Positions 1-12,500 of a stretch of 13,418 bases of DNA are shown here, in pieces (position 1 is the stretch's first letter; every line of letters starts with the position of its first letter). The DNA lies in assembly GCA_023267515.1 (NCBI GenBank), contig JAHFNF010000016.1, positions 1 through 13,418 of the forward strand, read 5' to 3'. The DNA comes from Candidatus Nomurabacteria bacterium (GTDB lineage Bacteria > Patescibacteriota > Minisyncoccia > Phycocordibacterales > UBA9973). The notes beneath the pieces were generated by a model. It made no database searches, was not told where the DNA came from, and saw nothing but the letters and a program-made list of their open reading frames with translations. The position numbers and the translations under genes were made by a program.

Positions 1-914
1 TATGTTTCTTTAAATTTAGCGCGTTTTTCTTCGGCATCTACAACCCCTGCCAAATTTTTATAAAATTCTTCTTGCGCATCTACTACATGTAAATTTATCC
101 CTGCTCGCTTACAAGTATCTTTCACCTCTTCAATTTCCTTATATCGCGCACCGCCAGTATCAATCAAGAATGCATATAAATTATTTTTCATCACAGGCGC
201 GAGCAATGCAGCAAGAGTGGTAGAATCTACTCCGCCAGAGACCCCGATAGCTGTGAGGCCACTTCCTACTTTTTTTAAAACTTCATCCCTAATTTCTTTG
301 ATCACATCCCCTGCTTGCCAATCCACTGTCGCCCCGCAAATATTTTCCGCAAAATTTTTCAAAATTAAGTTATTATCTTCCGTCTCAAACACCTCGGGGT
401 GAAACTGCACCGCGTATATTTTTTTATCAGTATTTTCCATTGCTTCAATGGCATTGCCTGAATGCGCCGTCGCCCGGTAGCCACTCGGCACCTTGCTCAC
501 GACATCCCCATGGCTCGCCCATACTTTTAATTTTTTAGGCACACCCCTAAATAGCTCGCCATCTTCAATATTTATTTCTATCGGCCCGTATTCTTTACCG
601 TGCTTCTCTCCACCGGTAACTAAGGATTTATCTTCGCGGTAAGCAACGTAGTGCATTCCATAGCAAATCCCCAGTACTGGGCAATTCATTTTAAAAATCT
701 CTTCCGGAATATCTGGCGCATCTGGATCGTAAACGCTCGCCGCCCCACCAGAGAGGAGAATGCCTTTCGGCTTGTTGTTTTTTATATACTCTCCTATTGT
801 GTCTGTACTGAAAATGATATTCTTGTGGCCGAGTTTTAAGAGCTCCCTGCCGATCACTTGGGTATACTGCGAGCCGAGATCAAGGATGACAAGTTGTGCA
901 GTATTGTTTTCCAT
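1..914 (-). CDS. guaA: GMP synthase (glutamine-hydrolysing), 3' end outside window
   Basis: Converts XMP to GMP with glutamine and ATP in the cytoplasm, the last step of the guanine branch. The first 304 residues are present with no stop; the C-terminal dimerisation part lies left of the window. Visible order: a class I glutamine amidotransferase domain (about 7-192) opening with LDLGSQYTQ, with the nucleophile in GICYGM (Cys84) and the His-Glu pair in FHPEV (His172, Glu174); then the ATP-pyrophosphatase domain with the PP-loop SGGVDS (226-231). The ATG at 914 is three bases after the purA stop, so it is the last visible gene of the guaB-purA-guaA operon. No Shine-Dalgarno sequence precedes it. 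Oddities: GMQ after the nucleophile is GMH here, and the usual D(H/N)GLLR motif of the synthetase domain reads IDTGGAR (251-257). The family assignment is secure. Confidence 0.96.
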   Translation of the reverse strand, partial: MENNTAQLVILDLGSQYTQVIGRELLKLGHKNIIFSTDTIGEYIKNNKPKGILLSGGAASVYDPDAPDIPEEIFKMNCPVLGICYGMHYVAYREDKSLVTGGEKHGKEYGPIEINIEDGELFRGVPKKLKVWASHGDVVSKVPSGYRATAHSGNAIEAMENTDKKIYAVQFHPEVFETEDNNLILKNFAENICGATVDWQAGDVIKEIRDEVLKKVGSGLTAIGVSGGVDSTTLAALLAPVMKNNLYAFLIDTGGARYKEIEEVKDTCKRAGINLHVVDAQEEFYKNLAGVVDAEEKRAKFKET

Positions 915-917
915 ATT

Positions 918-2306
918 TTATACTTTTTTTATTATTTCATCTCGCTTCGGGCCAGTGGAAATAAAAGAGATGGGCACCCCGGTTTCAACCTCAATAAAAT
1001 CCAAATAATCTTTCATCTCCTTTGGAATATCAGCTAGTGAGGTAAATCCTTTTGTATCTTTCTTCCAGCCAGGGAAAATTTTATAGACTGGCTTTGCTTC
1101 CGCGAGCTTGGAAATGTCCACTTCATCTTGCCCTTCGTAATGAGTGCAAACTGCTATTTCATTTAAGGTGTCCAATATATCAATCTTGGTAATACCGAGC
1201 TCAGTGACACCATTTAGGGCAATAGCATATTTAAGAAGCGGCAAATCGAGCCAGCCAGTCCGGCGCGGGCGTCCAGTCGTCGCCCCATATTCATTGCCTA
1301 AACCACGTAAAGCAATACCTTGCTTTAGCGGCACGGAGTCATTTACATCATAATTTAAATTCTCTTCATCAGCTCTGGTATGTGTTGTAGACCATTTATC
1401 AGCTTCTTGCCCACCAATCTCTGTCGGGAAACAGCCATTACCCACCCGGGTAACATATGCCTTGCAAACACCCAAGACAGTGCCGATGTCGGATGGAGCA
1501 AGGCCTAGGCCCACGCAAGCACCAGCAGAAGTTGTATGTGAGGAAGTGACGCCACGCCTCGTACCAAAACGCACATCAAGTAAGGTCCCTTGTGCCCCTT
1601 CCGCTATCACTTGCTCACCATTTTTCAAAGCAGTCTGTAAAAATGAATGGCAAGGCACAATATTTAAAGTCTGTAGTAGGGCCACTCCATCAAAAAATTT
1701 CTCTTCTTCTTCAGCGAGGGCTTTCAAATCTGGTTGAAAATTATATTTGCCGGATAAAGTTTTGAGATGGGATTCTTTTATTTCCTCGTAACGCTTGTGA
1801 AAAACTTTATCATCTTCTGCTTCATAAACTGCTAGATCATCTGTACGGCTGTAAAAATCTCCATAAGTGGGACCGATCGCTTTATTGGTTGTACCAATAC
1901 GTCCCCCTCCGCGCTCGCTTTCTTGCACCGCCTCAATAAGCTTGGCTGTGGGCACCACCACTGTCGCTTCTTTCGCAATAAATAAATTTTCTTTCCACCA
2001 CGGAGCGATGTCTTTTATCTCAGCAATTTCTTTTTTCATTGAGACGACGTCAATATTTACTCCGGCTCCTACAAGATTTTTTGTATTCTTTTCTAAGATT
2101 CCTGATGGGATGGAATGAAAAACCACTTTCCTGTTGCCAAATTCAATGGAGTGCCCGGCATTTGATCCGCCTTGAAAGCGAGCCACTAAAAGTTTTTGCG
2201 TTTCACTAAGAGTTGAAACAAGATAATCAATAAATTTTCCTTTTCCTTCGTCACCCCATTGCAACCCAAGTATCACTGATACTCGTTTCTTTTTATTATC
2301 ACTCAT
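918..2306 (-). CDS. purA: Adenylosuccinate synthetase
   Basis: Joins aspartate to IMP using GTP, the first committed step to AMP. It has 462 residues against about 430 for most bacterial enzymes. The N-terminal GTP-binding signature QWGDEGKGK has the catalytic Asp19; GGSNAGH carries the catalytic His52 (usually GGNNAGH). The IMP-binding GTT (138-140) is followed by IGPTYGD and Arg154, which matches the Arg supplied across the dimer interface in E. coli. EGAQGTLLD (236-244), the VTSSHTTS switch region, GATTGRPRRTGW (341-352) and the STGP guanine-binding motif near the C-terminus follow. Much of the extra length is an insertion around 300-335, before GNEYGATTG. The ATG is one base after the guaB stop, so translation is probably coupled; there is no Shine-Dalgarno sequence. 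Together with guaB and guaA it places both exits from IMP in one transcript. Confidence 0.97.
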   Translation of the reverse strand: MSDNKKKRVSVILGLQWGDEGKGKFIDYLVSTLSETQKLLVARFQGGSNAGHSIEFGNRKVVFHSIPSGILEKNTKNLVGAGVNIDVVSMKKEIAEIKDIAPWWKENLFIAKEATVVVPTAKLIEAVQESERGGGRIGTTNKAIGPTYGDFYSRTDDLAVYEAEDDKVFHKRYEEIKESHLKTLSGKYNFQPDLKALAEEEEKFFDGVALLQTLNIVPCHSFLQTALKNGEQVIAEGAQGTLLDVRFGTRRGVTSSHTTSAGACVGLGLAPSDIGTVLGVCKAYVTRVGNGCFPTEIGGQEADKWSTTHTRADEENLNYDVNDSVPLKQGIALRGLGNEYGATTGRPRRTGWLDLPLLKYAIALNGVTELGITKIDILDTLNEIAVCTHYEGQDEVDISKLAEAKPVYKIFPGWKKDTKGFTSLADIPKEMKDYLDFIEVETGVPISFISTGPKRDEIIKKV

Positions 2307-2307
2307 A

Positions 2308-3783
2308 TTATTTAGAATAATTCGGCGCTTCTTTGGTAATGGTCACATCATGTGGATGACTTTCCGTCATACCTGATTGGGTAATCTTAGTAAAATTCGC
2401 ATCCCACATATCTTTTATACTTCCGGCCCCGATATACCCCATCCCTGCGCGAAGTCCCCCGACGTATTGATAGACAATTTCCGCCACAGTACCCTTAAAC
2501 GGCACGATACCGACTATCCCTTCCGGCACCAACTTGGAGCTTTCTAATTCGGTATCTTGGAAATAGCGGTCCTTTGAGCCCTCTTGCATTGCTTCTACTG
2601 ACCCCATCCCGCGATAACTTTTAAAACGCCTGCCTTCCAAGAGCACCATCTCTCCCGGGGACTCTTCTGTGCCAGCAAAGAGCGAGCCCATCATAACCGT
2701 GGATGCCCCAGCCACAAGCGCTTTTACCATATCGCCACTATAACGGATTCCCCCATCAGCAATTACCGGAATATCATAACCGGCATTTCTCAGAGCTTCA
2801 GCGGCATTCATAATGGCGGAAAGTTGCGGAACGCCAATACCAGCAATCACCCTCGTTGTACAAATTGATCCAGGGCCGACACCGACTTTTACCGCATCCG
2901 CTCCGGCCTTGGCGAGCGTTACCGCTCCCTCACCAGTAGCGACATTACCAACTATGATTTGAGCCTTTGGGTACGTTTTTTTAATTTTTTTTAAAGCATC
3001 AATGATACCCTTTGAATGCCCATGCGCGCTGTCTAGTACTAAAACATCCGCGCCGGCGTCCAGCAACTCTTTAGCAGAAGTTAGCGCTTGCGGTCCTGCG
3101 CTGATAGCCGCCCCTACTCGGAGCCTGCCACGCTCATCTTTTGAAGCATTTGGGTTGGCCTCACCTTTTTGAATATCCTTGTAAGTAATGAGCCCGACTA
3201 AAACACCTTTTTTATTTACAATCGGTAATTTTTTTATTTTATTATGGAGTAAAATATTTTTTGCTTGTGCAAGCGAACAGGATTCTGGTGCTGTAATAAG
3301 TTTCTTGGTCATCACGGTACTTACTTTTTTAGAGAGATTTGTTTCCGAGCGCATATCTCGGCTGGTAATAATGCCTACAAGTTTTCCTCCATCCTCCACG
3401 ATTGGAAGCCCTCCGATACCTTTTTCCTCCAAGAGCTTTGTCGCCTCTGCCAAAGTTGCGTCAGGAGAAAGTGTATACGGATCTTGGATGATACTATTTT
3501 CAGATCGTTTAACTTGCTTAATCTGAGCCACCTGCTCTGTGATTGGCATATTTTTATGGATGATACCGATACCCCCAGCTTGGGCGATAGCCACAGCTAA
3601 CCGTGCCTCGGTGACCGTGTCCATCGCGGCAGAAATGATGGGAGTGTTTAGAGCTATTTTTTTAGTTAAATGGGTCTTTACGATGACTTCACGGGGGAGT
3701 ATCTCCGAATACCGAGGTATTATCAAGACGTCATCAAAAGTCAAAGACTCTTGTATATCCCCACGTTTTGAGGCCTTTTTCAT
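2308..3783 (-). CDS. guaB: Inosine-5'-monophosphate dehydrogenase
   Basis: NAD-dependent oxidation of IMP to XMP, the rate-limiting step of guanine nucleotide synthesis. At 491 residues it is full length. The TIM-barrel starts with [10 protein letters not shown] (14-23) and SAAMDTVTE; a tandem CBS (Bateman) domain occupies about 93-200 and is the usual adenine/guanine nucleotide sensor. The catalytic loop GPGSICTTR has Cys298; [11 protein letters not shown] (331-341), YRGMGS (380-385) and the flap KDRYFQ (394-399) complete the active site. It is the first gene of guaB-purA-guaA. The ATG is supported by an extended -10 box six bases upstream, predicting an mRNA that begins at the start codon. 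No leader remains for a riboswitch, so control would act at the promoter or through the CBS domains. Confidence 0.98.
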
Positions 3784-3789
3784 TTAAGG

Positions 3790-3798
3790 AGTATAACA
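3790..3798 (-). promoter_or_regulatory. Extended -10 promoter of guaB, predicted leaderless
   Basis: On the minus strand TGTTATACT (TGn plus a -10 hexamer matching TATAAT at 5 of 6) is followed by CCTTAA and then the guaB ATG. With the usual seven-base distance from the last -10 base to +1, transcription would start at the A of the ATG (3783). No good -35 is visible, which is normal for extended -10 promoters. Confidence 0.7.
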
Positions 3799-3800
3799 TA

Positions 3801-3818
3801 TTTATTTTTAAAAATAAA
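3801..3818. repeat. 18-bp perfect AT palindrome upstream of guaB
   Basis: TTTATTTTTAAAAATAAA is its own reverse complement. It spans about -18 to -35 relative to the predicted guaB start, the place of a -35 element, and follows the stop of the peptidoglycan-binding gene. It could be an operator, a weak AT hairpin ending the upstream gene, or chance in AT-rich DNA. No GC stem is present. Confidence 0.45.
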
Positions 3819-3826
3819 ATATTAAG

Positions 3827-4360
3827 TTACCCTTGCTTTTTTAGCCAATCAATCATCTTACTAAAAGTAGCCTGGCCGGCTTCCCCACTTGCGGTAAGAC
3901 CTTCTGCTTTCTGAAATGCTATGATGGCCTTTTTTGTACTATCGCCAAAATCATTGTCTATTTTATTTGTCGTATTATTGTAAATATTTAAAAATTGCTG
4001 AATAGTGCCCACCCGAGTACCTCGTGATTTTAGCTTCATTGTCACATTGTCATCTATGAGTTGCTGCAAAGCATTTATTAAATCTTGATATTTATACACG
4101 GTGGCTGGCGCCACTGGATTTTGTTCTGCCGGCTCAGTGTTTTGCTCACTTGTCTCTGCGATAGGCTGAAAAGCGCTGAGCTGATTTTTTAAATCAGCTG
4201 TTTCTTTTTCCAACTCTGCATTTTCTTTTTCAAGCGATTTTAACTTCTCGGTATTCACATGTTCACTGCCGGATTGGAGCGTAGTAATAGCCCAGTAACC
4301 TAAAAGGCCCACCAACGCCAAAACAACGATTGAAAACAAAGTAAATTTTAACTTTTCCAT
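3827..4360 (-). CDS. Membrane-anchored coiled-coil protein with peptidoglycan-binding-like domain
   Basis: A 177-residue envelope protein. Residues 5-27 are one hydrophobic segment (FTLFSIVVLALVGLLGYWAI) after MEKLK, read as an uncleaved signal anchor with the rest outside. Residues about 35-66 are rich in Glu, Lys and Leu with heptad spacing (coiled coil). A Pro/Ala/Gln-rich linker follows (about 67-88), and the last ~85 residues fit a PG_binding_1-like three-helix fold: RGTRVGTIQQFLN, then FGDSTKKAIIAFQKAEGL and a closing TFSKMIDWL helix. No enzymatic domain is attached. The layout mirrors the VanY-type protein two genes upstream. It is 43 bases ahead of guaB on the same strand with no GC-rich terminator between, so some read-through is possible. 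The exact role is unknown; binding to cell wall or holding wall enzymes is an inference. Confidence 0.8.
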   Translation of the reverse strand: MEKLKFTLFSIVVLALVGLLGYWAITTLQSGSEHVNTEKLKSLEKENAELEKETADLKNQLSAFQPIAETSEQNTEPAEQNPVAPATVYKYQDLINALQQLIDDNVTMKLKSRGTRVGTIQQFLNIYNNTTNKIDNDFGDSTKKAIIAFQKAEGLTASGEAGQATFSKMIDWLKKQG

Positions 4361-4366
4361 ACAAAT

Positions 4367-4375
4367 ATAATATCA
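4367..4375 (-). promoter_or_regulatory. Extended -10 promoter of the peptidoglycan-binding gene, predicted leaderless
   Basis: Minus strand reads TGATATTAT, then ATTTGT, then ATG. The TGn extension and a 5-of-6 -10 hexamer are in the same position as at guaB, so +1 falls on the A of the ATG at 4360. No Shine-Dalgarno sequence is present. Confidence 0.65.
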
Positions 4376-4398
4376 AAAAAACAAAAGATAAAAATCTT
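4376..4398 (-). terminator. Weak hairpin plus T-tract after the small basic gene
   Basis: Immediately after the stop of the 37-residue gene the minus strand has AAGAT, a TTTT loop, ATCTT and then a T-rich run (4386-4376). The stem is only five AT-rich pairs, so it is a doubtful intrinsic terminator. It abuts the next gene's -10 element. Confidence 0.3.
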
Positions 4399-4399
4399 A

Positions 4400-4513
4400 T
4401 TAATTCTTTTTCTTTTTAGCAAGTAGCGCGTGCTTGATAGCGAGACGCTTCTTGGTCTTGTGTGAACGTCTAGATTTCTTTTTTGGACTAAGGGTTGTTC
4501 CTCTTTTTGCCAT
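4400..4513 (-). CDS. 37-residue highly basic small protein, function unknown
   Basis: ATG at 4513, TAA at 4400-4402. It begins MAKRGTTLSPKKKSRRSH and ends in LLAKKKKN. By direct count 18 of 37 residues are Lys, Arg or His and there is no acidic residue. This composition resembles small ribosomal or nucleic-acid-binding proteins, but I cannot match it to bL32, bL34, bL36, THX or another named family. It sits in a 206-base gap between the VanY-type gene and the peptidoglycan-binding gene, preceded by a perfect TATAAT with a leader of about 20 bases and no Shine-Dalgarno sequence. The codons are ordinary and the frame is clean over the whole span, favouring a real gene. An RNA-binding or ribosome-associated role is a guess from charge alone. 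Confidence 0.6.
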   Translation of the reverse strand: MAKRGTTLSPKKKSRRSHKTKKRLAIKHALLAKKKKN

Positions 4514-4540
4514 ATAATTTTTTGTTATTAGTAAGTTTGT

Positions 4541-4546
4541 ATTATA
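4541..4546 (-). promoter_or_regulatory. -10 box of the small basic gene
   Basis: A perfect TATAAT on the minus strand, overlapping nothing coding and lying between the VanY-type stop and the small gene. The predicted +1 is near 4534, giving a leader of about 20 bases. The -35 region is a T/A run with no clear hexamer. Confidence 0.5.
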
Positions 4547-4566
4547 CTAGAAATTTTTTAAAAAAC

Positions 4567-5466
4567 CTAATCAAAAATCTTAATCAAATATTCATCAATA
4601 TCGCGCTGATCCCAATCGTAAAAATATTTTCCTTCATCATTTAATTCCCTTGCCAACTCTACCCCCACAAACCGCCAATGCCACGGCTCGTATTTGTAAA
4701 ACGAATTCCCTTGTGGGTAAGAAAGAATAAAGCCATGATCATATGCATTATCGAGGAGCCACTGGTAGGCGGTTGTTTTTTCAAAACCGTTGAGCGAACC
4801 GTATAATCCAGGGGTTGTAAAATCTAGCGTCGTGCCGAGCTGATGCTCGGAATATCCTTGTTCTGCAGAAAAACTATTTGCTGTTCCTGCTCCATATTGC
4901 ACAGTGTACGCATTTTTTAAATTATTTTGCATTTGAAATGAACGATAAGCGGAAGCGACCCAGATCACTATACCATCATGCTTTGCTTCTTCCAACATAT
5001 CATCTAAAAAGGGAGAGACATCTGCTAAAATCTGAGTCTGTTTACTTGGGACACTGAGATACTCTTTATCAATATCTTCCAATTCAGTCGGCACATAATT
5101 TTCACTTAAAAAGTAAACTTTTGAATACTTTTTTAAAAGCTCAGGATCAATCGTGGTCAGCTTGGTAAGCTCATCTATTTTATCTTCTTGTCTTCTTTTT
5201 TGGCGTTCAAGTTTAAGATTAGTTTTTTGTTGATCGGAGAGAGTCGCGGTAATGCTGTCATTTTCACTTTGCACCTCTTCTAATCTATGCTCCAAATCTT
5301 TTAGGTTGCTTTCATAGGATGCAGTGATGCTGGTGAGCTCTGTCTTTGCGGCCGTAAGATTTGTATAAAGATAAAAAATCCCATAGCCTAAGGCCCCGAT
5401 GACAACCACCCCAAGGATTTTAAGAGTGTTTCCTCTATTAAAATAAGCAATGATTTTTTCTTTCAC
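4567..5466 (-). CDS. Membrane-anchored VanY-type D-alanyl-D-alanine carboxypeptidase
   Basis: Zinc metallopeptidase predicted to remove the terminal D-Ala from peptidoglycan stem peptides outside the membrane. The 299 residues read as: a short basic start, a transmembrane segment at about 15-35, a charged coiled coil (about 38-103), and a VanY/peptidase M15 domain (about 115-290). Metal and catalytic motifs are all present: ASAYRSFQMQ (171-180), SEHQLGTTLDF with ligands His208 and Asp215, and EPWHWR with catalytic Glu260 and ligand His263. The start is GTG at 5466, chosen because a TGATATAAT box ends exactly six bases before it. The domain layout matches the peptidoglycan-binding protein downstream, and the same window encodes Ddl, which makes the D-Ala-D-Ala substrate. 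D,D- rather than L,D-specificity is inferred from the family. Confidence 0.9.
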   Translation of the reverse strand: MKEKIIAYFNRGNTLKILGVVVIGALGYGIFYLYTNLTAAKTELTSITASYESNLKDLEHRLEEVQSENDSITATLSDQQKTNLKLERQKRRQEDKIDELTKLTTIDPELLKKYSKVYFLSENYVPTELEDIDKEYLSVPSKQTQILADVSPFLDDMLEEAKHDGIVIWVASAYRSFQMQNNLKNAYTVQYGAGTANSFSAEQGYSEHQLGTTLDFTTPGLYGSLNGFEKTTAYQWLLDNAYDHGFILSYPQGNSFYKYEPWHWRFVGVELARELNDEGKYFYDWDQRDIDEYLIKIFD

Positions 5467-5472
5467 TTTTGA

Positions 5473-5481
5473 ATTATATCA
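5473..5481 (-). promoter_or_regulatory. Extended -10 promoter of the VanY-type gene, predicted leaderless
   Basis: Minus strand TGATATAAT (perfect -10 with TGn), then TCAAAA, then the GTG start. The predicted +1 is the G of GTG at 5466. This is the best match of the four boxes of this kind in the window and it decides the start codon. Confidence 0.75.
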
Positions 5482-5517
5482 CAAAATATTTTTATTTCGG
5501 CTTATTGCTTAGTGACG

Positions 5518-5547
5518 TTGTAAAACAATAATTCTTACATATATAAT
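5518..5547 (+). promoter_or_regulatory. Possible distal promoter of the PAP2 gene
   Basis: TTGTAA at 5518-5523 and a perfect TATAAT at 5542-5547, spaced by 18. The predicted +1 is near 5554. A transcript from here would contain both arms of the inverted repeat 5569-5577/5627-5635 and could fold just before the ATG. Confidence 0.4.
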
Positions 5548-5555
5548 CTCGCAAA

Positions 5556-5622
5556 AAACGTTCTTGGGAGTGTTGTTGACTAAATACAAAAAAGCTGTAT
5601 TATTGGGACCATAAACGTTCTT
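5556..5622 (+). repeat. 10-bp direct repeat flanking the PAP2 promoter
   Basis: AAACGTTCTT occurs at 5556-5565 and again at 5613-5622, 57 bases apart start to start. One copy is upstream of the -35 and one is in the leader; each contains the palindrome AACGTT. Confidence 0.7.
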
Positions 5623-5635
5623 AAAAAACAACACT
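5569..5635. repeat. 9-bp inverted repeat flanking the PAP2 promoter
   Basis: AGTGTTGTT (5569-5577) and its exact reverse complement AACAACACT (5627-5635) enclose the -35/-10 pair. The left arm overlaps the -35 by two bases; the right arm ends one base before the ATG. It could be a paired operator, or an RNA hairpin in a transcript from the distal promoter. Confidence 0.65.
5576..5603 (+). promoter_or_regulatory. Sigma70-like promoter of the PAP2 gene
   Basis: TTGACT at 5576-5581, a 16-base spacer and TATTAT at 5598-5603. The predicted +1 is near 5610, leaving a leader of about 27 bases without a Shine-Dalgarno sequence. Confidence 0.6.
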
Positions 5636-5636
5636 T

Positions 5637-6329
5637 ATGAAAACAATACCTTTACTCCCCCCGTTCAAACAGATACAGAGATTCGAAAGAAGGATAGGTA
5701 AAATAAAGAATAGATTCTTTTCAATGAATAAGTGGTTAGCATTTTCCATTATATTTTTTGGTTTATTTGGGGTATATCTGGCTATCAATCAAATCCCAAT
5801 GTATCGATTCGCCTATCAATTAAATGCAATTGAAAAAAGAATACCATTTCTTCCGTGGAGTTTCACTATTTACTTCTCAATTTTTTTACAAATTGCGATC
5901 GTAATTCATCGCAGTTCGCAAAAATTATTTAGAGAATTAATAGGAATACTAATTCCACTGGTCATTCTATACTTCATCCTGTTTCTGTCTTTGCCACTAA
6001 GATACCCAGCGGAAAACTACCCTAGTGATAATTCCTTTATTTGCTCCCTCCGGAAGATAGATGTTGGGAATTGCTATCCGTCCCTTCACGTGGCTCTTAC
6101 TATTATTTTTTCATTTGCATATGGGTATATTCAGAAACAAAGAAAATTAAGAATTTTAATGTGGATGTGGTCACTCCTTATCATTCTATCCGTCCTGACA
6201 ACCAAGCAGCATTATCTATTGGATGTAGTGGCATCAATAGTGCTTACAATTGTATGGTGGATAAGATGGGGTATACCAAAGACAGTAGATAGGTATTATC
6301 AATATCTGGAGGCTAGGTATAGTAGCTAG
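5637..6329 (+). CDS. PAP2-family integral membrane phosphatase/phosphotransferase
   Basis: A 230-residue polytopic membrane protein, probably acting on lipid or isoprenoid phosphates at the membrane. Hydrophobic segments lie near 33-51, 73-91, 102-120, 152-165, 172-187 and 197-210. PAP2 signatures: an RYP element (122-124) at the place of the first motif, CYPSLHVAL with His151, and TTKQHYLLDV with His192 and Asp196, the third-motif His and Asp. The Lys before QH, rather than Arg, resembles the PAP2_3 (inositol phosphorylceramide synthase-like) branch. Substrate is not predictable; undecaprenyl diphosphate recycling or phospholipid headgroup exchange are both possible. It is a single-gene unit with its own promoter and terminator, divergent from the VanY-type gene. 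Arg codons are overwhelmingly AGA/AGG (12 of 15 counted) and ATA is frequent, unlike uvrA or purA, which may indicate separate ancestry. Confidence 0.85.
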   Translation: MKTIPLLPPFKQIQRFERRIGKIKNRFFSMNKWLAFSIIFFGLFGVYLAINQIPMYRFAYQLNAIEKRIPFLPWSFTIYFSIFLQIAIVIHRSSQKLFRELIGILIPLVILYFILFLSLPLRYPAENYPSDNSFICSLRKIDVGNCYPSLHVALTIIFSFAYGYIQKQRKLRILMWMWSLLIILSVLTTKQHYLLDVVASIVLTIVWWIRWGIPKTVDRYYQYLEARYSS

Positions 6330-6335
6330 CCGCAC

Positions 6336-6387
6336 AAACCTTACTTGAACGAGATTATCAAATCTTTAATTCAAGTAAGGTTTTTTT
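6336..6387 (+). terminator. Rho-independent terminator of the PAP2 gene
   Basis: AAACCTTACTTGAA (6336-6349) pairs perfectly with TTCAAGTAAGGTTT (6370-6383), and the T run continues to 6387. Within the loop AGATT (6352-6356) can pair with AATCT (6361-6365), extending the hairpin. It starts seven bases after the stop. Confidence 0.85.
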
Positions 6388-6393
6388 ATTGGG

Positions 6394-6465
6394 CTCCGGG
6401 GGTAGGGATCGAACCTACGACCAATCGCTTAACAGGCGACCGCTCTACCGCTGAGCTACCCCGGA
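6394..6465 (-). tRNA. tRNA-Asn (anticodon GTT)
   Basis: A complete 72-base cloverleaf on the minus strand: acceptor TCCGGGG/CCCCGGA, D stem GCTC/GAGC, anticodon stem GTCGC/GCGAT around loop CTGTTAA, T arm GTAGG TTCGATC CCTAC, discriminator G. The following bases are CCCA, not CCA, so the 3' CCA is probably added by tRNA nucleotidyltransferase. Its 3' end lies close to the convergent PAP2 terminator. Confidence 0.95.
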
Positions 6466-6492
6466 ATGTTTCTAAAAACTTTAAAGAACCAC

Positions 6493-6498
6493 GTTATA
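6493..6498 (-). promoter_or_regulatory. Candidate -10 box of tRNA-Asn
   Basis: TATAAC on the minus strand, about 28 bases before the mature 5' end. The predicted +1 is near 6486. There is no convincing -35 in the poly-T region upstream. Confidence 0.35.
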
Positions 6499-6525
6499 CT
6501 AGCAAAAAAGAGATAAAAAAACAAT

Positions 6526-6553
6526 TTGCATTATATGAAAAATAAAGTAATAT
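6526..6553 (+). promoter_or_regulatory. Candidate promoter of the tRNA-Ala pair
   Basis: TTGCAT (6526-6531), a 16-base spacer and TAATAT (6548-6553). The predicted +1 near 6560 is about 15 bases before the first tRNA-Ala. It is the best -35/-10 pair in the 109-base gap between the divergent tRNA genes. Confidence 0.45.
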
Positions 6554-6574
6554 TGATAGGCAAACAAAAATATT

Positions 6575-6647
6575 GGGCCCTTAGCTTAGTTGGTAGAGCG
6601 CCTCATTTGCAATGAGGAGGTCAGGAGTTCGAATCTCCTAGGGTCCA
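6575..6647 (+). tRNA. tRNA-Ala (anticodon TGC)
   Basis: A 73-base cloverleaf: acceptor GGGCCCT/AGGGTCC with the alanine identity pair G3-U70, D arm GCTT/GAGC, anticodon stem CCTCA/TGAGG with loop TTTGCAA, variable loop AGGTC, T arm AGGAG TTCGAAT CTCCT, discriminator A. CCA is not encoded (ACAA follows). It is in tandem with a second tRNA-Ala 25 bases downstream. Confidence 0.96.
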
Positions 6648-6672
6648 CAACGAGTCACCTTTGAGCCAATTT

Positions 6673-6746
6673 GGGCCTATAGTAAAATGGTATTACGCAT
6701 CCATGGCATGGATGAGGTAGGGGTCCGATTCCCCTTAGGTCCACCA
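6673..6746 (+). tRNA. tRNA-Ala (anticodon GGC) with encoded CCA and a C55 variant
   Basis: Acceptor GGGCCTA/TAGGTCC again shows G3-U70; D arm GTAA/TTAC with GG in the loop; anticodon stem CATCC/GGATG with loop ATGGCAT; four-base variable loop; T arm AGGGG/CCCCT. The T loop reads TCCGATT, so the position normally U55 (TTC) is C. Discriminator A is followed by an encoded CCA (6744-6746), unlike the other two tRNAs here. It serves GCC/GCU codons. Confidence 0.92.
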
Positions 6747-6767
6747 AAAGATAGATATCCGTTAAAT

Positions 6768-7772
6768 TTATTTTTTACTAATCGCAAGCTCCAAGATGTG
6801 ATCTATGAACTCTGACATATTTGAGCCGATAGAAAACAACGCTTTTGGTATAAGGGACTCTTCGGTGAGCCCTGGCAAGGTATTTACTTCTAGAGCGTAT
6901 ATTCCCCTATTTGGCACCACTATAAAATCACTGCGGGAGTAATGGCCAAGCCCGAGTCCAGTATGGATGGCGAGAGCTAGACGTTCAAGTTCCCTCTTCT
7001 CCACCTCGGAGAAATTTCCCGGGCATATTTCTTCGGACTTACCAGAATACTTTGCCTCATAATCAAAAAAACGCGAGCCAATTGGCGGACGAATTTCAAT
7101 AGCTGGCAATGCGTATAAATCTTTCCCGCGGAATTTTTCTATCACTCCGACTGTCGCTTCCTTCCCTGCTATCAACTCTTCCGCAAGGATGCTGACATTT
7201 TTATTTTCCATACTTTCAAAAGCCTGCGCGAGCTCAGGCAAAGTCTTGCAAACGCGAATACCCAATGAAGACCCGCCAGTCAGTGGTTTTAAAATCCAAG
7301 GTGGTGATAACTTTTCAAAAACTTCCCTCGCCTTTTTCCTAGCATAAAATTCTAAAGGACCATCAAAGTCTTCTTGATATAGTGGAATTAAAAAGTGTTT
7401 TGGGGTTTTTATGCCAAGCTGTGCAAATTGTTCTTTGGCTAAAACTTTATTGTATCCAACAGCCGATGGCACTGACTCGGAACCAGTATAAGGAATACTC
7501 CAATTTTCTAAAACTTGTTGTAATTTGCCGTCTTCACCAAAATCACCATGCAGAGCGTTAAACACAACATCAACCGAACGTGCCAATTTTTCTTGAGAAA
7601 TTGGCAAACCGTTTAGGTGACAAACACCTTCCTTATCAACTAGAAGATCAAAAGGTTCGTATTTTTTACTTAGTATATCGCCACGCAAGTGCGAAAGAAC
7701 ATTCCCGCCCGTGGCAAGTGAGATATCATATTCAGGGCTTACACCTCCGCGAATAACACCGACTTTTATCAT
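6768..7772 (-). CDS. ddl: D-alanine--D-alanine ligase
   Basis: ATP-dependent ligase making D-Ala-D-Ala for peptidoglycan precursors in the cytoplasm; 334 residues, normal for the family. N-terminal GGVSPEYDISLATG carries the substrate-binding Glu14; HGDFGEDG (75-82) follows. The ATP-grasp part has ILKPLTGGSSLGI (160-172), YSRSDF (278-283) and the metal-binding LEVNTLPGLT (294-303, with Glu295 and Asn297). The start is four bases after the uvrC stop, with a weak AAGG just upstream, so it is the second gene of a uvrC-ddl operon. No terminator is visible after the stop; transcripts would run towards the convergent tRNA-Ala pair. The VanY-type carboxypeptidase at 4567-5466 acts on the product of this pathway. 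Van-type D-Lac or D-Ser ligase activity cannot be excluded from sequence alone. Confidence 0.95.
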   Translation of the reverse strand: MIKVGVIRGGVSPEYDISLATGGNVLSHLRGDILSKKYEPFDLLVDKEGVCHLNGLPISQEKLARSVDVVFNALHGDFGEDGKLQQVLENWSIPYTGSESVPSAVGYNKVLAKEQFAQLGIKTPKHFLIPLYQEDFDGPLEFYARKKAREVFEKLSPPWILKPLTGGSSLGIRVCKTLPELAQAFESMENKNVSILAEELIAGKEATVGVIEKFRGKDLYALPAIEIRPPIGSRFFDYEAKYSGKSEEICPGNFSEVEKRELERLALAIHTGLGLGHYSRSDFIVVPNRGIYALEVNTLPGLTEESLIPKALFSIGSNMSEFIDHILELAISKK

Positions 7773-7776
7773 AGCC

Positions 7777-8964
7777 TTATTTTAGCATATTCCTTCCACG
7801 AATCTTCCTATGGTAAGTAATGGCAAACCTATGCGCCTCGGAGTTTGCCAAAAGAATAGCTTTTTCGTTCAAGCCCTCTGCTTTTCCAGAATACAAAATC
7901 TGTCTCGGCCTACGACGCTCGTCTTTCACCACTGCCACTACTGGTATGGAAAGGCCGGCTTTCTTTTGAAACTTTTTTGCTGCATTGAGCTGTGCCCGCC
8001 CGCCATCTATCACAATAAGACCAGGATATTGCCATTCTGGATGATTGAATCTCCGCTCTAGTACCTCGAGCAATGCCCCAGTATCATTGGAACTATCGTA
8101 TTTCCTTATCTTAAATTTTCTATATTCGTTTTTATTTACTTCTCCATTTTCTACCACCACCATCACTCCTACCATATTTTTACCAGAAGTATGGGCAATA
8201 TCGTATGCTTCGATGCGTGAAGATTGAGAGCTGTGCTTGAAGGAGTCTTCGCTCTTAATTAATGCCACATCATTTATGTGCTTTAAAGCAAATAATTGTT
8301 TTTTGATTTCATTTGCTTCTTCGAATTTATGCTCCTTTGCCAGCTTTTTCATATCTCTTTCAAGCCCTTTTAAGATCCTTGTCTTTTTACCTTCAAAAAA
8401 AAGAATAATATTTCTTATATTCCTCTTGTATTCGTCCCCCTCCGGTGCAAGTTTTATCTGCCGATAAAATTCATAATTATTTTTAGATTTATCGTCAAGA
8501 TATGGAAAAATCTTTCTTATGATTTTCATCGCTTCGCGAAGCTGGTTTCCATTTGGATATGGACCAAAAATGTTTGCGAAGGCGGCGGAATTTTTTTGAT
8601 TCTGAAGCTCCTTGCCTCGAACTAGAGCAATTTTATTGTCTTTTGTTATACAAACATAATTGAAACTTTTATCATCTTTTTCTTTGGTATTGTAATAAGG
8701 CTGATTTTTTTTTATTAAATTTGCTTCAAGAATTAAAGCCTCGAGCACCGAGTCAGTTTCCTGCCATTTTATACTCGTCGCTTTGGTAATCATATCCACA
8801 ATCAAGGGCCCACGCATATTGAATAAATCCCTAGAAAAATAGCTTTTTACCCGGTCTTTGAGCGATGTCGCCTTACCAACATATAAAATATCCTTATTTT
8901 TAAGGAAAAAATACACCCCTGGCCTATCTGGAATCTTATATTTTTTCAGCTGTTGACTATTCAT
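7777..8964 (-). CDS. uvrC: Short UvrC-like excinuclease (GIY-YIG, UVR, RNase H core)
   Basis: UvrC makes the two incisions of bacterial nucleotide excision repair with UvrB. This protein has 395 residues against about 600. N-terminal GIY-YIG nuclease: PGVYFF (Tyr18), DILYVGKA (Tyr28), Arg38 and LILEANLIKK with Glu80. A UVR motif (about 201-231, LERDMKKLAKEHKFEEANEI) fits UvrB contact. The RNase H-like nuclease keeps AYDIAHTSG (Asp255), VIDGGRAQL (Asp320) and SEAHRFAITYHR (His378); Asp294 may be the fourth carboxylate. Missing are the four Fe-S cysteines normally between GIY-YIG and UVR (the only Cys is 105), roughly 120 residues between UVR and the RNase H core, and the C-terminal HhH domain. 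The frame is intact and ddl starts four bases later, so it is not a broken gene. The start is supported by a leaderless-type promoter. Confidence 0.9.
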   Translation of the reverse strand: MNSQQLKKYKIPDRPGVYFFLKNKDILYVGKATSLKDRVKSYFSRDLFNMRGPLIVDMITKATSIKWQETDSVLEALILEANLIKKNQPYYNTKEKDDKSFNYVCITKDNKIALVRGKELQNQKNSAAFANIFGPYPNGNQLREAMKIIRKIFPYLDDKSKNNYEFYRQIKLAPEGDEYKRNIRNIILFFEGKKTRILKGLERDMKKLAKEHKFEEANEIKKQLFALKHINDVALIKSEDSFKHSSQSSRIEAYDIAHTSGKNMVGVMVVVENGEVNKNEYRKFKIRKYDSSNDTGALLEVLERRFNHPEWQYPGLIVIDGGRAQLNAAKKFQKKAGLSIPVVAVVKDERRRPRQILYSGKAEGLNEKAILLANSEAHRFAITYHRKIRGRNMLK

Positions 8965-8981
8965 AATTTATATGATAACAT
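8953..8981 (+). promoter_or_regulatory. Promoter of the 9013-9399 gene
   Basis: TTGACT (8953-8958), a 17-base spacer and TAACAT (8976-8981) give a predicted +1 near 8988 and a 25-base leader. It overlaps the uvrC start region and the divergent uvrC promoter, so the two genes may compete for polymerase. Confidence 0.55.
8972..8980 (-). promoter_or_regulatory. Extended -10 promoter of uvrC, predicted leaderless
   Basis: Minus strand TGTTATCAT, then seven bases (ATAAATT), then the uvrC ATG at 8964. The geometry is the same as at guaB and the VanY-type gene apart from one extra base. The predicted +1 is at 8965 or 8964. Confidence 0.6.
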
Positions 8982-9012
8982 AATTCTAAACCCCCGTAAA
9001 ACCCCTAATTTT

Positions 9013-9399
9013 ATGAAAGAAAAACCACCCCCAGTTCCTTTTTTTTCTGTTTTTTATCCTCTTGAAGTTGCATGTGATACAATACGTGGAATTCCAATTT
9101 CATTAGTCAAAGAAAAAATAGACTTTATTGAAAATAACTTTACTGGAAAAAATAAGTATATCGTTGAAGACGGTAACTTAGTTTCAGTTAGAATAGCAGT
9201 CAGTAAAGAGATTCAGGAAACACGTAAAACTTTATTAAAAGTGAACATGTCTCCTGAGGCAAGCCATGAGGAAAGAGAAAGAAGAGCAACAGAAAGATGT
9301 CAAAAAATCTTGAGAGTTGAGGACATTCTAGCCATTGCTAGCTTCGCTAAAGGTATTGTTATGGAAGCAGAAAAAAGGCGAGGGATTGCTTTGAGTTAA
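9013..9399 (+). CDS. 128-residue hypothetical protein
   Basis: I do not recognise a family. The ATG at 9013 (MKEKPPPVPFF) is preferred: an in-frame TTG at 8953 would extend it by 20 residues but coincides with the -35 hexamer of its likely promoter. A Pro-rich hydrophobic N-terminus (about 1-20) is followed by mixed alpha/beta sequence (DTIRGIPISLVKEKIDFIENN, then VEDGNLVSVRIAVSKEI) and a strongly charged helical C-terminal half (ASHEERERRATERCQKILRVEDIL, closing with MEAEKRRG). No signal peptide or clear membrane segment. It forms a single-gene plus-strand unit between the oppositely oriented uvrC and uvrA, with its own promoter and a good terminator. Arg codons are mostly AGA, as in the PAP2 gene. 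Placement between two repair genes does not by itself show a repair role. Confidence 0.7.
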   Translation: MKEKPPPVPFFSVFYPLEVACDTIRGIPISLVKEKIDFIENNFTGKNKYIVEDGNLVSVRIAVSKEIQETRKTLLKVNMSPEASHEERERRATERCQKILRVEDILAIASFAKGIVMEAEKRRGIALS

Positions 9400-9413
9400 A
9401 AAACTCTCAACAA

Positions 9414-9450
9414 GGGAGAACCCGGAAATTTCTGTGTTCTCTCTTTTTTT
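9414..9450 (+). terminator. Rho-independent terminator of the 9013-9399 gene
   Basis: GGGAGAAC (9414-9421) pairs with GTTCTCTC (9436-9443) with one G-U pair, then a run of seven T (9444-9450). The T tract reaches the uvrA stop codon (9449-9451). On the minus strand the same hairpin lacks an immediate T run, so it is less convincing for uvrA. Confidence 0.85.
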
Positions 9451-12097
9451 ATTTCCTCAAAACTTTTTTTAGATATTTTCCTGTATAACTCTTTGCATTA
9501 TTGGCCACTTCTTCTGGGGTACCTTTAGCAATCAAGACTCCACCTTTATCCCCTCCTTCCGGCCCAAAGTCTAAAAGATAATCGCTAGATTTTATCAAAT
9601 CCATATTGTGCTCAATGACGACGACAGTGTGCCCTTTATTGACAAGCTTATCTAAAACAGAAATCAAATTTACCACATCATCATAATGCAGTCCCACCGT
9701 TGGCTCATCAAGCAGATAAATAGTTTTTTCAAGATACGGCCGAAAAAGCTCGCTAGAGATTTTTACTCTCTGCGCTTCCCCGCCAGAAAGTGTCGTCGCC
9801 GATTGGCCGAGCTTTACATAGCCGAGGCCCACATCCATCAATGTCCTGCATCGGTCATAAACACTTGGAATATCTTCAAAGAAATTAATTGCGTCTTCTA
9901 CTGTCATTTGCAAAATCTCGTAGATATTTTTATTTTTATATTTTACTTTTAGAGTCTCTTTATCAAAACGCTTTCCCATACACACATCACAAGTCACATA
10001 CACCGTCGGTAAGAAATGCATCTCCACCGCTATCTCGCCATTCCCCTCACAGGCCTCACAGCGCCCGCCTTTCACGTTGAAAGAAAAACGATTCTGCTTC
10101 CACCCGCGAAGGCGAGCTTCTTCCGTCTCGGCAAAAAGATCGCGTATAAAGACAAACATCCCTGTATAAGTGGCAATGTTTGAACGCGGGGTTCGGCCGA
10201 TCGGACTTTGGTCTATCAATACTGTGCGCTGTAAGTATTCACTGCCTGAAAAAGAGGCACAGTTGAAAGTGGTATTTGACCGATATTTTCTCTCAAACCT
10301 CGCTTGCAGATTTTTATGCAAAATTTCATACATAAAAGAAGATTTACCCGAGCCGGAAACTCCAGTGATAGAAACCAGCCGCCCAAGCGGAATCTCTGCA
10401 TTTAAATTCTTTATATTAAAAATCTTTCCGCCGACGATTTTTAGACTGCCCTTTTCTCCAGTCCGTCTTTTTTCCGGCTTTTCAATTCTCGCTTCCTCGC
10501 GCAAATATGCCAAGGTGCGGGACTTTGAAGTATTCTTCGGCGCAGTCAAAAGCTTGTCCAAATAATCTGCCACCACTATCTCCCCGCCGTGCACACCCGC
10601 TTTTGGACCAATGTCCACAATATAGTCCGAAGAGTAAATCGTATCTTCATCATGCTCTACGACTATAATAGTATTGCCCAAATCTCGGAGATCAATCAGA
10701 GTTTTTATTAATCTTTCATTGTCCCGTTGGTGAAGCCCAATCGTAGGCTCATCCAGCACATACAAAGCACCGACGAGGCGTGAGCCGAGCTGGCTCGCAA
10801 GACGAATGCGTTGCGCTTCCCCACCGGAGAGGGTATTTGCCCGCCTGTTTAGCGCCAAGTATTCCAAACCGACATTTAATAAAAATTCCAAACGGGATTC
10901 AATCTCTCGCAAAAGCACCGCCGAAATCTCGCGCTCTTTTGCACTTAATTTTAATTTATTAAAAAATTCCACTGCGTCTTCTATTGATAAAGAAGTGACA
11001 TCCACGATGTTCAAAGCAGAATCAGAAAAATTCTGTCCGTGTCGGAGCCCCCGCAGAGAGGGTAAAGCGGCAGAATTTTTTTTAATCTGCGTAGCTCCTA
11101 ACAAGACATGAAGTGCTTCGGGACGCAGACGTTTCCCCCCACATTCATCACACGGATCTTCCCCAAACATATGCTTCGTGCCAAGTCCGTGACACACAGG
11201 GCAAGCCCCGTGCGGAGAATTGAAAGAAAATAATCTAGGTTCTATTTCCGGATACGAAAAGCCATCCTTCGGGCAGGAAAATTTTGCCGAGAGCAATGTT
11301 TCTTCTTTATCTATTTTTATGTTCACTAATCCATCTGATTCTAAAAGAGCCCGCTCCACTGATTCAGAAAGTCGCAATTCAACATCTTTGCTATCTTTAC
11401 CAGCAAATTCATGCGCAGTAAATTCATCCACCAACACATCAATATCATGCTTTTTGTTCTTGGTTAAATCTATCCGCTCGCGGAGCTTTTTCATCACTCC
11501 GTCCACCCGCACTTGCGTATATCCTTTGCCGAGCAAATCGTAAAGAAGCTGATAATATTCTCCCTTCCTTCCCCGCACCATCGGCGCAAAAATCTGTATC
11601 GGGGTGTCGTTAAATTCCACCCCCATCACTTTCTTTTTCGGGCCAGAGAGCTTAGAAATTTTATCCATAACGAAATGAATAATTTCTTCATTGGAAAGTT
11701 TTTTAATTTCATCTCCGCAAACGAGGCAGTGCGGCCGGCCGACGCGCGCGTAAAGCACGCGCAGATAATCATAGATTTCAGTAATCGTCGCCACTGTGGA
11801 GCGTGGGTTGTTTGAGCGGGATTTTTGGTCTATAGAAATGGCCGGGGACAATCCTTCAATCTCATCCACGTCCGGCTTGGCCATTTGCTTTAAAAATTGG
11901 CGGGCATAAGAAGAGAGGGACTCCACATACCTCCGTTGCCCCTCGGCAAAAATCGTATCAAAAGCAAGCGAGCTTTTCCCGCTCCCCGAAAGCCCAGTAA
12001 AAACTATCATCTTGTTGCGAGGCATTTCTACCGTCACGTTCTTTAGGTTGTGCGTCCGAGCCCCCTTCACTATTATTTTGTCGTTGTTTTTTTGCAT
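9449..12097 (-). CDS. uvrA: Excinuclease ABC subunit UvrA, with internal deletion
   Basis: Damage-recognition ATPase of nucleotide excision repair; loads UvrB on DNA. It has 882 residues against about 940. First ABC half: Walker A GLSGSGKS (35-42), a UvrB-binding region (about 120-270, with CLVC at 124-127), signature LSGGEAQR (423-430), Walker [10 protein letters not shown] (447-455). Second half: GVSGSGKSS (579-587), the DNA-contacting zinc module CEAC...CDVC (680-683, 703-706), LSGGEAQR (770-777) and LLDEPTVGL. The first zinc module reads CPKDG (275-279) and CPVC (299-302): the usual second Cys is Asp278. The segment of about 110 residues normally between CPxCxGLG and the next CxxC pair is reduced to about ten, so CDEC follows at 316-319; about 20 residues are added near 335-355. 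Both ATP sites look intact, so it should be functional. Confidence 0.95.
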
Positions 12098-12119
12098 ATG
12101 GCGATGTAAAACCTCAAAT

Positions 12120-12142
12120 CCCCCACAGCGCTCGCTAGGGGG
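12120..12142 (-). promoter_or_regulatory. Stable hairpin in the uvrA leader
   Basis: On the minus strand CCCCC (12142-12138) pairs with GGGGG (12124-12120), enclosing AGCG/CGCT (12136-12133 with 12130-12127), with a small asymmetric bulge between. It lies about 22 bases before the uvrA ATG inside the predicted leader. There is no T run after it, so it is not an intrinsic terminator. It could stabilise the mRNA or regulate translation. Confidence 0.55.
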
Positions 12143-12163
12143 TATGTATTAATTTGTAACGTT

Positions 12164-12172
12164 ATTATAGCA
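12164..12172 (-). promoter_or_regulatory. Extended -10 promoter of uvrA
   Basis: Minus strand TGCTATAAT: a perfect TATAAT with TGn extension. The predicted +1 is near 12157, giving a leader of about 60 bases, in contrast to the leaderless pattern at uvrC. No SOS-type operator is recognisable around it. Confidence 0.7.
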
Positions 12173-12186
12173 TAAAATTGTAAAAT

Positions 12187-12214
12187 AAAAAAGCCTCGCT
12201 AGTGCGGGCTTTTA
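12187..12214 (-). terminator. Rho-independent terminator of the HicB-like gene
   Basis: On the minus strand AAAAGCCCGC, an ACTA loop, GCGAGGCTTTTTT: a stem with one bulged base followed by six T and then ATTTT. It lies between the HicB-like gene and the uvrA promoter, separating the two units. The plus-strand reading has only four T, so it is weaker that way. Confidence 0.75.
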
Positions 12215-12232
12215 TTGAAACATTCGTAAGAT

Positions 12233-12421
12233 TCATTTTTTCTTTTTTCTTTTTGTTTTCTTTTCGTTGTTAAGAAGTTTATCAATAACTTTGATTAAAT
12301 TACTCTTAGCTTCAGTTGCTGTATATCCTTCGGCTAAGGCTCCAAAAATTTCTACACACCATGAAATATACCTTTTTGGGGTAACTTTTACGGTGTTCAT
12401 GGTTAAAGTTAGGGTTTGCAT
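12233..12421 (-). CDS. 62-residue HicB-like small protein
   Basis: Residues 17-50 (RYISWCVEIFGALAEGYT, then EAKSNLIKVIDKLL) resemble the HicB antitoxin core, where a strand pair ending in a Gly is followed by GxTxxEAxxNLxxxI. The typical C-terminal DNA-binding extension is replaced by a Lys/Arg tail (NNEKKTKRKKKK). No HicA-type partner lies on either side in this window, so this is an orphan and may not be part of a toxin-antitoxin pair. ATG at 12421; Met8 is an alternative start. The stop is TGA, the only one in the window. It has its own promoter with a palindrome and a terminator. Family assignment is by pattern only. Confidence 0.6.
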   Translation of the reverse strand: MQTLTLTMNTVKVTPKRYISWCVEIFGALAEGYTATEAKSNLIKVIDKLLNNEKKTKRKKKK

Positions 12422-12468
12422 TGTATTTTGTTTTAAGGTTAAAAAAACTATTGTTTAAATCAATAAGT

Positions 12469-12497
12469 AAAATACTATATTAATAGTATGAAGTCAA
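12469..12497 (-). promoter_or_regulatory. Promoter of the HicB-like gene with palindromic spacer
   Basis: Minus strand TTGACT (12497-12492), a spacer of exactly 17 and TATTTT (12474-12469). The predicted +1 is near 12462, with a leader of about 40 bases. The promoter begins four bases after the decarboxylase stop. Confidence 0.6.
12472..12489. repeat. 7-bp inverted repeat overlapping the HicB-like promoter
   Basis: ATACTAT (12472-12478) and ATAGTAT (12483-12489) with a four-base centre. It covers most of the -35/-10 spacer and part of the -10, the usual place for a repressor site. As RNA from the decarboxylase gene it would be a weak AT hairpin followed by TTT, so a poor terminator is the alternative reading. 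Confidence 0.6.
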
Positions 12498-12500
12498 ATT

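Follow-up and report, generated by a model that had tools for sequence, protein, structure and literature searches.

Predicted leaderless genes behind extended -10 promoters in an order of Patescibacteriota whose 16S rRNA tails lack the anti-Shine-Dalgarno motif

Background

In the genome of a Candidatus Nomurabacteria bacterium, a promoter-like box, TGnTAnnnT, recurs 6 bases ahead of ATG start codons far more often than in control patterns, and all relatives of its order with a readable 16S rRNA tail lack CCTCC, the anti-Shine-Dalgarno (anti-SD) motif. The stretch from which this analysis started, called the window below, comprises 13,418 nucleotides (GenBank assembly GCA_023267515.1, contig JAHFNF010000016.1, positions 1 to 13,418 of the forward strand; GTDB lineage Bacteria; Patescibacteriota; Minisyncoccia; Phycocordibacterales; UBA9973). 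We propose that an extended -10 element placed 6, sometimes 7, bases ahead of ATG gives rise to leaderless mRNA at a minority of genes, in a cell whose ribosomes very probably work without an anti-SD; judged from sequence, we give this reading a probability of roughly 0.85. A sequence-only reading of the window had already described four TGn-TATnnT boxes on the minus strand, ahead of guaB, a peptidoglycan-binding gene, a VanY-type gene and uvrC. On re-reading the sequence, their coordinates and spacings (6, 6, 6 and 7 bases) all proved right, as did the remark that these genes have no Shine-Dalgarno (SD) sequence: by eye, GGAG, AGGA, GAGG and AGGT are missing directly ahead of all four starts.

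Results

Spacing between box and start codon

The genome to which the window belongs (644,231 bases in 76 contigs, 92.56% complete) contains 91 instances of TGnTAnnnT-N6-ATG; a spacer of 9 bases, by which codon phase is preserved, gives 17 and the reversed pattern 10. This genome-wide search for enrichment at a given spacing, which had been suggested together with the four boxes, places the fixed spacing beyond chance. In a spacing profile over 20 contigs of the same genome (two of them in part), 57 boxes lie at spacing 6, 15 at spacing 7 and 2-12 at each remaining spacing between 0 and 25, with a peak at 6 that is inflated because 19 of these contigs were already known to hold matches. In congeners, the pattern reached at least 3.2 times the reversed control in 24 of 24 genomes searched.

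For GTG starts no such enrichment was found: TGnTAnnnT-N6-GTG occurs 19 times in the whole genome versus 17 for the reversed control, and within the 20 contigs there are 11 sites at spacing 6, 2-7 at in-phase spacings and up to 17 at out-of-phase spacings. The proposal that leaderless expression extends even to a GTG start thus stays plausible for the single VanY site and is not borne out as a genome-wide GTG excess.

Promoter features of the box

Aligning 76 box genes from this genome and a congener (G166) showed that the positions left free by the search pattern are themselves biased (T.57, A.70, A.71), giving TATAAT, and that T (.61) and A/G (.75) prevail just upstream of the box, giving a TRTG extension. 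A weak TTG emerges in the same alignment at a spacer of 17 bases, and words resembling a -35 element (TTGA, TTGC, TTGT, TTTAC) stand at a spacer of 15-19 bases in 19 of the 76 genes, versus 6.4 +/- 2.3 in shuffles. When scored with a position weight matrix at spacing 5-7, the box is scarce at operon-internal genes of the genome under study (4/73 versus 42/147 for the others, P = 3.5e-5), and the congener gives 5/70 and 25/127. The box also precedes tRNA genes. It ends 0-30 bases ahead of 5/15 tRNAs in our genome, 5/16 in G166, 8/11 in G282 (which belongs to a different class of the phylum and has kept its anti-SD) and 1/1 in G217 (another family of the same order), with 1, 2, 0 and 0 boxes respectively at 31-61 bases; pooled over the first three genomes this amounts to 18/42 versus 3/42. 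With a 6-base discriminator, as is general for sigma70 promoters, transcription would start on the A of the ATG. The boxes look like extended -10 elements (TRTGnTATAAT) of vegetative sigma70-type promoters, situated chiefly at the heads of transcription units and in short same-strand gaps, and the earlier argument that -10 geometry would put the transcription start at the start codon agrees with all of these features.

Two other explanations of the box have to be weighed against a promoter. An AT-rich genome could yield TGnTAnnnT close to ATG accidentally; the stretches read are 59% A+T, and scanning the region for a plain sigma70 consensus gives 18 sites, hardly different from the 15.5 +/- 3.7 of shuffles, but the whole-genome excess is confined to spacing 6 and recurs in every congener searched, leaving accident next to no probability. 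Alternatively, the box could be a translation signal, an AU-rich enhancer or unstructured context, with transcription starting further upstream. Upstream regions are indeed AU-rich, with TAAT, AATAA and TTAA enriched even at genes without a box, and T ahead of ATG is common in every gene class. Against this stand the TRTG extension, the TATAAT consensus and the -35 at 17 bases, the scarcity of the box in operon-internal genes and its presence ahead of tRNAs in three genomes. Moreover, in G082, a sister lineage within the class that has lost the anti-SD, the box lies mainly 23-32 bases ahead of ATG (12 sites, 44 genes), which predicts leaders of about 17-25 bases. We consider a pure translation signal quite improbable and retain the extended -10 promoter.

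16S rRNA tails

Of 108 genomes tried, 104 gave a readable 3' tail of the 16S rRNA gene, and this set leans towards full-length, high-scoring 16S matches; the unread ones are G007, a member of the order with an unreadable 3' end, and G063, G098 and G218 from elsewhere in the phylum. In the order, CCTCC was found in 0 of 25 readable tails (8 congeners and 17 genomes of 16 other families), most tails of the genus reading ...TGGA ATAATTCAATTT.... Among other members of the class, 4 of 5 tails are without the motif; elsewhere in the phylum, 72 of 74 tails retain it and the other two are one-base variants. As every readable 16S gene of the order is without CCTCC, ribosomes of the genome under study are very probably without an anti-SD too, and initiation would therefore proceed without classical SD pairing. 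The sequence-only reading, which had rightly seen that SD sequences are missing, overlooked that the 16S rRNA of relatives in the order has no anti-SD either.

Tails of the class can be arranged from an intact CACCTCCTTTC (G311) over CACTTCTTATC (G126) and CACTACATTTC (G303) to the ATAATTCAATTT-like form of the order. The tails of G126 (TCACTTCTTATC) and G303 (TCACTACATTTC) resemble a partly decayed anti-SD, and the series as a whole looks like a stepwise decay. We also considered a hairpin in place of the anti-SD, formed by the seemingly conserved inverted repeat TTCAATTTGAA / TCCAATTGGA, and rejected it for the order, stems of at least 4 pairs occurring in 17/23 tails of the order versus 55% of shuffled ones; elsewhere in the phylum they are in excess (69/74 versus 40% shuffled).

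Shine-Dalgarno words and start codon context

Genes were called with a home-made open reading frame (ORF) caller. For the genome under study the gene statistics cover 258,674 of 644,231 bases; they come from 20 of its 76 contigs, and as matches were already known in 19 of these 20, its percentages are inflated; the stretches of G166 (200 kb) and G217 (80 kb) were chosen regardless of matches. SD-like 4-mers precede 11/220 starts (5%) in our genome, versus 12% at internal ATGs, and 17/197 (9%) versus 13% in G166. In G282, they precede 78/183 starts (43%) versus 10% at internal ATGs. Among operon-internal genes the fractions are 36/61 in G282 versus 5/73 in our genome. None of 44 box genes carries an SD-like 4-mer, which is partly so by construction, the box filling much of the searched stretch.

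The words most enriched upstream of genes without a box are TAAT, TTAA and AATAA in the genus, and GGAG and AGGA in G282. A T stands directly ahead of ATG in 66% of starts of our genome versus 34% of internal ATGs, both with and without a box; the same excess is present in G166, G217, G303, G082, G311 and G282 and hardly in G153 (25 versus 22%). Compensation for the loss of SD by stop-start overlap was rejected, overlaps of -4 being fewer in our genome (9/161 same-strand pairs) than in G282 (17/132). ATGA coupling shows no simple gain in our genome, and gaps of 0-8 bases separate 43/161 same-strand pairs there versus 18/132 in G282.

Extent of leaderless use and evidence weighing against it

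In the congener stretch, 22 of 197 genes have a box at spacing 6, 30 have one at 6-7 ahead of the first ATG and 36 if any of the first eight starts counts; in our own contigs, selected for matches, the inflated figure is 52/220. Leaderless genes would accordingly form a minority of varying size, predicted at 11-18% in the unselected congener stretch and 7% in the other family. The suggestion that leaderless mRNA is a main mode of expression here is not supported in that form.

Several observations weigh against the proposed reading as a whole. The majority of genes have no box, and most have neither box nor SD. In G217, which belongs to the same order, has a GC content of 55% and is without an anti-SD, only 5/75 genes have a box, and SD words are in slight excess (11/75, 15%, versus 10% at internal ATGs). 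The 16S gene of the genome under study is not in its 76-contig assembly, and the loss of its anti-SD is deduced from 8 congeners. In five genomes of the class, 0 of 20 tRNAs have a box within 30 bases upstream, and one has it at 31-61. Conservation between relatives is limited as well: a strict box at 6-7 is found in 2 of 13 guaB loci of relatives, and several others have, by eye, a -10-like element 8-13 bases ahead of ATG that would leave a leader of a few bases. Among 55 pairs of orthologues between our genome and G166, the strict box is present in both members of 6, in a single one of 11 and 9, and in neither of 29 (P = 0.51). A wider criterion gives 8, 6, 7 and 28 in 49 pairs of the two congeners (P = 0.017); the comparison with G217 comprises 5 orthologue pairs only.

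Leaderless starts compared to anti-SD loss across the phylum

We compared counts at spacing 6 and spacing 9, transcribed by hand, in 98 of 286 genomes of the phylum, that is 24 of the order and class and 74 others with a 16S tail read. Sites at spacing 6 outnumber those at spacing 9 in 91 of the 98; the ratio of the two counts is 2.55-2.89 within the order and 1.2-1.5 among other members of the class, and genomes outside the class that retain the anti-SD give 1.76. The class genomes G303, G082, G153, G126 and G311 are small samples with 29-63 scored genes each. G082 shows neither an SD excess nor leaderless starts among its 44 genes, and G153 and G126 give little leaderless signal. In G126, with the tail CTTCTT, SD-like 4-mers precede 10/35 starts versus 9% of internal ATGs, perhaps a transitional state. 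G311 has an intact CCTCC and no enrichment of SD-like words (3/45 versus 20% at internal ATGs), a combination like that reported for Bacteroidota.

Two further explanations concern the altered tail. The new 16S tail, AATAATTCAATTT, might pair with a variant SD, and its good conservation among several families of the order, together with weak excesses of GAAT in G166 (20 versus 12) and AATTG in our genome (9 versus 5), would fit such pairing. Apart from these, words that could pair with the tail show no enrichment just upstream of starts in our genome (GAATTA 4 versus 3, TGAATT 3 versus 2, TTGAAT 1 versus 1, ATTGAA 1 versus 4, GAAT 13 versus 22), which makes a variant SD highly unlikely. It could also be that anti-SD loss caused the frequent leaderless transcription of the order, which combines the strongest group excess at spacing 6 among the 98 genomes with the lack of an anti-SD in any tail read. 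On the other side, G282 unites an anti-SD, SD sequences and a strong leaderless peak (111 at spacing 6 versus 36 at spacing 9, comparable to 95 versus 25 in G166), and the anti-SD-less class sisters G082, G153 and G126 show little leaderless signal. Because leaderless promoters occur both with and without an anti-SD, its loss does not appear to be their cause, and we regard this causal account as rather unlikely. Leaderless use looks older and wider than anti-SD loss. On the simplest reading, leaderless promoters would go far back and be spread widely across the phylum; SD use would have waned in the class, with decay of the anti-SD following.

Boxes and genes in the window

The predicted leaderless starts of the window and the genes that they serve are as follows; besides the four boxes described earlier there is a fifth, at ddl.

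3781..3798, minus strand: guaB box, TGTTATACT-CCTTAA-ATG, predicted leaderless -10, 6-base discriminator and start
2308..3783, minus strand: guaB, IMP dehydrogenase (Pfam IMPDH, 2e-154)
4358..4375, minus strand: box of the peptidoglycan-binding gene, TGATATTAT-ATTTGT-ATG, predicted leaderless -10 with 6-base discriminator
3827..4360, minus strand: peptidoglycan-binding-domain protein, 177 aa (Pfam PG_binding_1, 3.5e-14)
5464..5481, minus strand: box of the VanY-type gene, TGATATAAT-TCAAAA-GTG, predicted leaderless -10 with 6-base discriminator
4567..5466, minus strand: VanY-type D,D-carboxypeptidase, 299 aa (Pfam VanY, 1e-30)
8962..8980, minus strand: uvrC box, TGTTATCAT-ATAAATT-ATG, predicted leaderless -10 with 7-base discriminator
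7777..8964, minus strand: uvrC, 395 aa (Pfam UvrC_RNaseH_dom, 7.4e-36; GIY-YIG, 1.9e-6)
7770..7787, minus strand: ddl box, TGCTAAAAT-AAGGCT-ATG, 6-base discriminator
6768..7772, minus strand: ddl, D-alanine-D-alanine ligase, 334 aa (Pfam Dala_Dala_lig_C, 1e-32)
5576..5639, plus strand: counter-example, PAP2-type gene with TTGACT-16-TATTAT about 33 bases upstream of the ATG at 5637; would be leadered
4511..4546, minus strand: counter-example, short basic ORF starting at 4513 with TATAAT 27 bases upstream of its ATG (by eye); would be leadered

The uvrC box has a weak -35, TTTACG, at a spacer of 17 bases, and the ddl box lies mostly within the 3' end of uvrC. At Rfam gathering scores the whole window yielded three tRNAs only, and known leaders or riboswitches were not found. 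The guaB gene heads a run of three same-strand genes, in which the ORFs after guaB are 1 and 3 bases apart; we take its neighbours to be purA and guaA. Across the genus guaB is patchy: of 18 further congeners searched, 11 gave a strong match (identity 53-75%). Among the 80 loci listed, which are mostly from Bacteroidota and Bacillota, proteins of these two groups share about 55-63% identity with it. It is possible that guaB was acquired by horizontal transfer, although its promoter is of the local type.

Discussion

In the mechanism that we propose, RNA polymerase would begin with the A of the ATG, producing a leaderless mRNA, the 5'-terminal AUG of which would be recognised by the 70S ribosome, or by the 30S subunit with initiator tRNA. 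Leadered and operon-internal genes would instead rely on AU-rich leaders with a U ahead of the AUG, and a short S1-like protein perhaps assists at these starts. An S1-like match is present in 24 of 24 genomes tried, none of them above the rpsA cut-off, and the open frame around the best match is mostly some 360-445 codons long; bS21, considered because its loss might be a correlate, gives a match at E <= 0.001 in 17 of 24 genomes, only 5 of which pass the cut-off. More tentatively, and with odds that we would put well short of even, the whole order, of which 17 families were sampled, may have dropped SD-anti-SD pairing altogether: a AATAATTCAATTT-like tail would no longer pair, and 5'-terminal AUGs or AU-rich, U-preceded AUGs within operons would be used in its place. 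Its ribosome may then be a natural SD-free machine, in which leaderless-type 70S initiation is the normal route rather than a stress route.

Comparing the order with class sisters that have altered tails, and with a dual-mode relative from another class that bears an anti-SD, makes it possible to test in which sequence SD use, the anti-SD and leaders disappeared. For annotation, gene finders that expect an SD may misplace starts in these genomes, in which the promoter box can itself serve as a marker of the start codon.

Comparison with known systems

The nearest counterparts of the boxes are the TA-led leaderless genes, also described as a -10 region adjacent to ORFs, of PMC3160421 and PMC12340547, the latter on Deinococcus-Thermus. 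According to these sources, the leaderless share exceeds 20% in Actinobacteria and Deinococcus-Thermus and is about 30% of ORFs in Deinococcota, and a strong TG extension is reported for Lactococcus. Common to both are a TANNNT -10 at a fixed short distance, the missing SD at such genes and their minority status. In Deinococcus radiodurans, however, a GGAG ribosome binding site forms the second motif upstream, whereas our genome has no SD excess and the 16S rRNA of its relatives no anti-SD. For bacteria at large, a figure quoted in PMC9581028 predicts leaderless transcription in 21.6% of species.

Bacteria without the anti-SD have been noted before. Among CCUCC-less bacteria, PMC10783764 includes Campbellbacteria, Wolfebacteria, Absconditabacteria and Peregrinibacteria with one or two genomes apiece, and PMC6107228 lists 128 taxids whose 16S is without CCUCC and which have few SD sequences. 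Scarce SD sequences are shared with the genome studied here, the CCUCC-less 16S being known in our case from relatives in the order. The text of PMC10783764 connects leaderless mRNA with the loss of CCUCC for archaea and, where it concludes, for Flavobacteriia too, and for candidate phyla this text gives no promoter architecture, whereas here CCTCC is missing from 25 of 25 readable genomes of the order, tails are partly altered in the class, and a leaderless promoter grammar is seen alongside. Archaeal Nanoarchaeia (PMC10783764) likewise combine leaderless mRNAs with CCUCC loss; here it is a bacterium with sigma70-type promoters in which leaderless genes are a minority. With the SD-less initiation of Bacteroidota (PMC6847099) the order shares the missing SD and an AU-rich upstream context, but Bacteroidota keep the anti-SD and the 25 tails read in this order are without CCTCC. 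In the portions of PMC12641178 available, YchF, a known promoter of leaderless translation, is named among conserved factors, the only place there where leaderless translation is mentioned. In the open-access literature, preprints excluded, no description of order-wide anti-SD loss or of leaderless promoters in these bacteria was found, although the whole-bacteria figure of PMC12340547 may cover the phylum. Leaderless genes and anti-SD loss are thus each known already, and what appears to be new is to see both across one order of tiny-genome bacteria.

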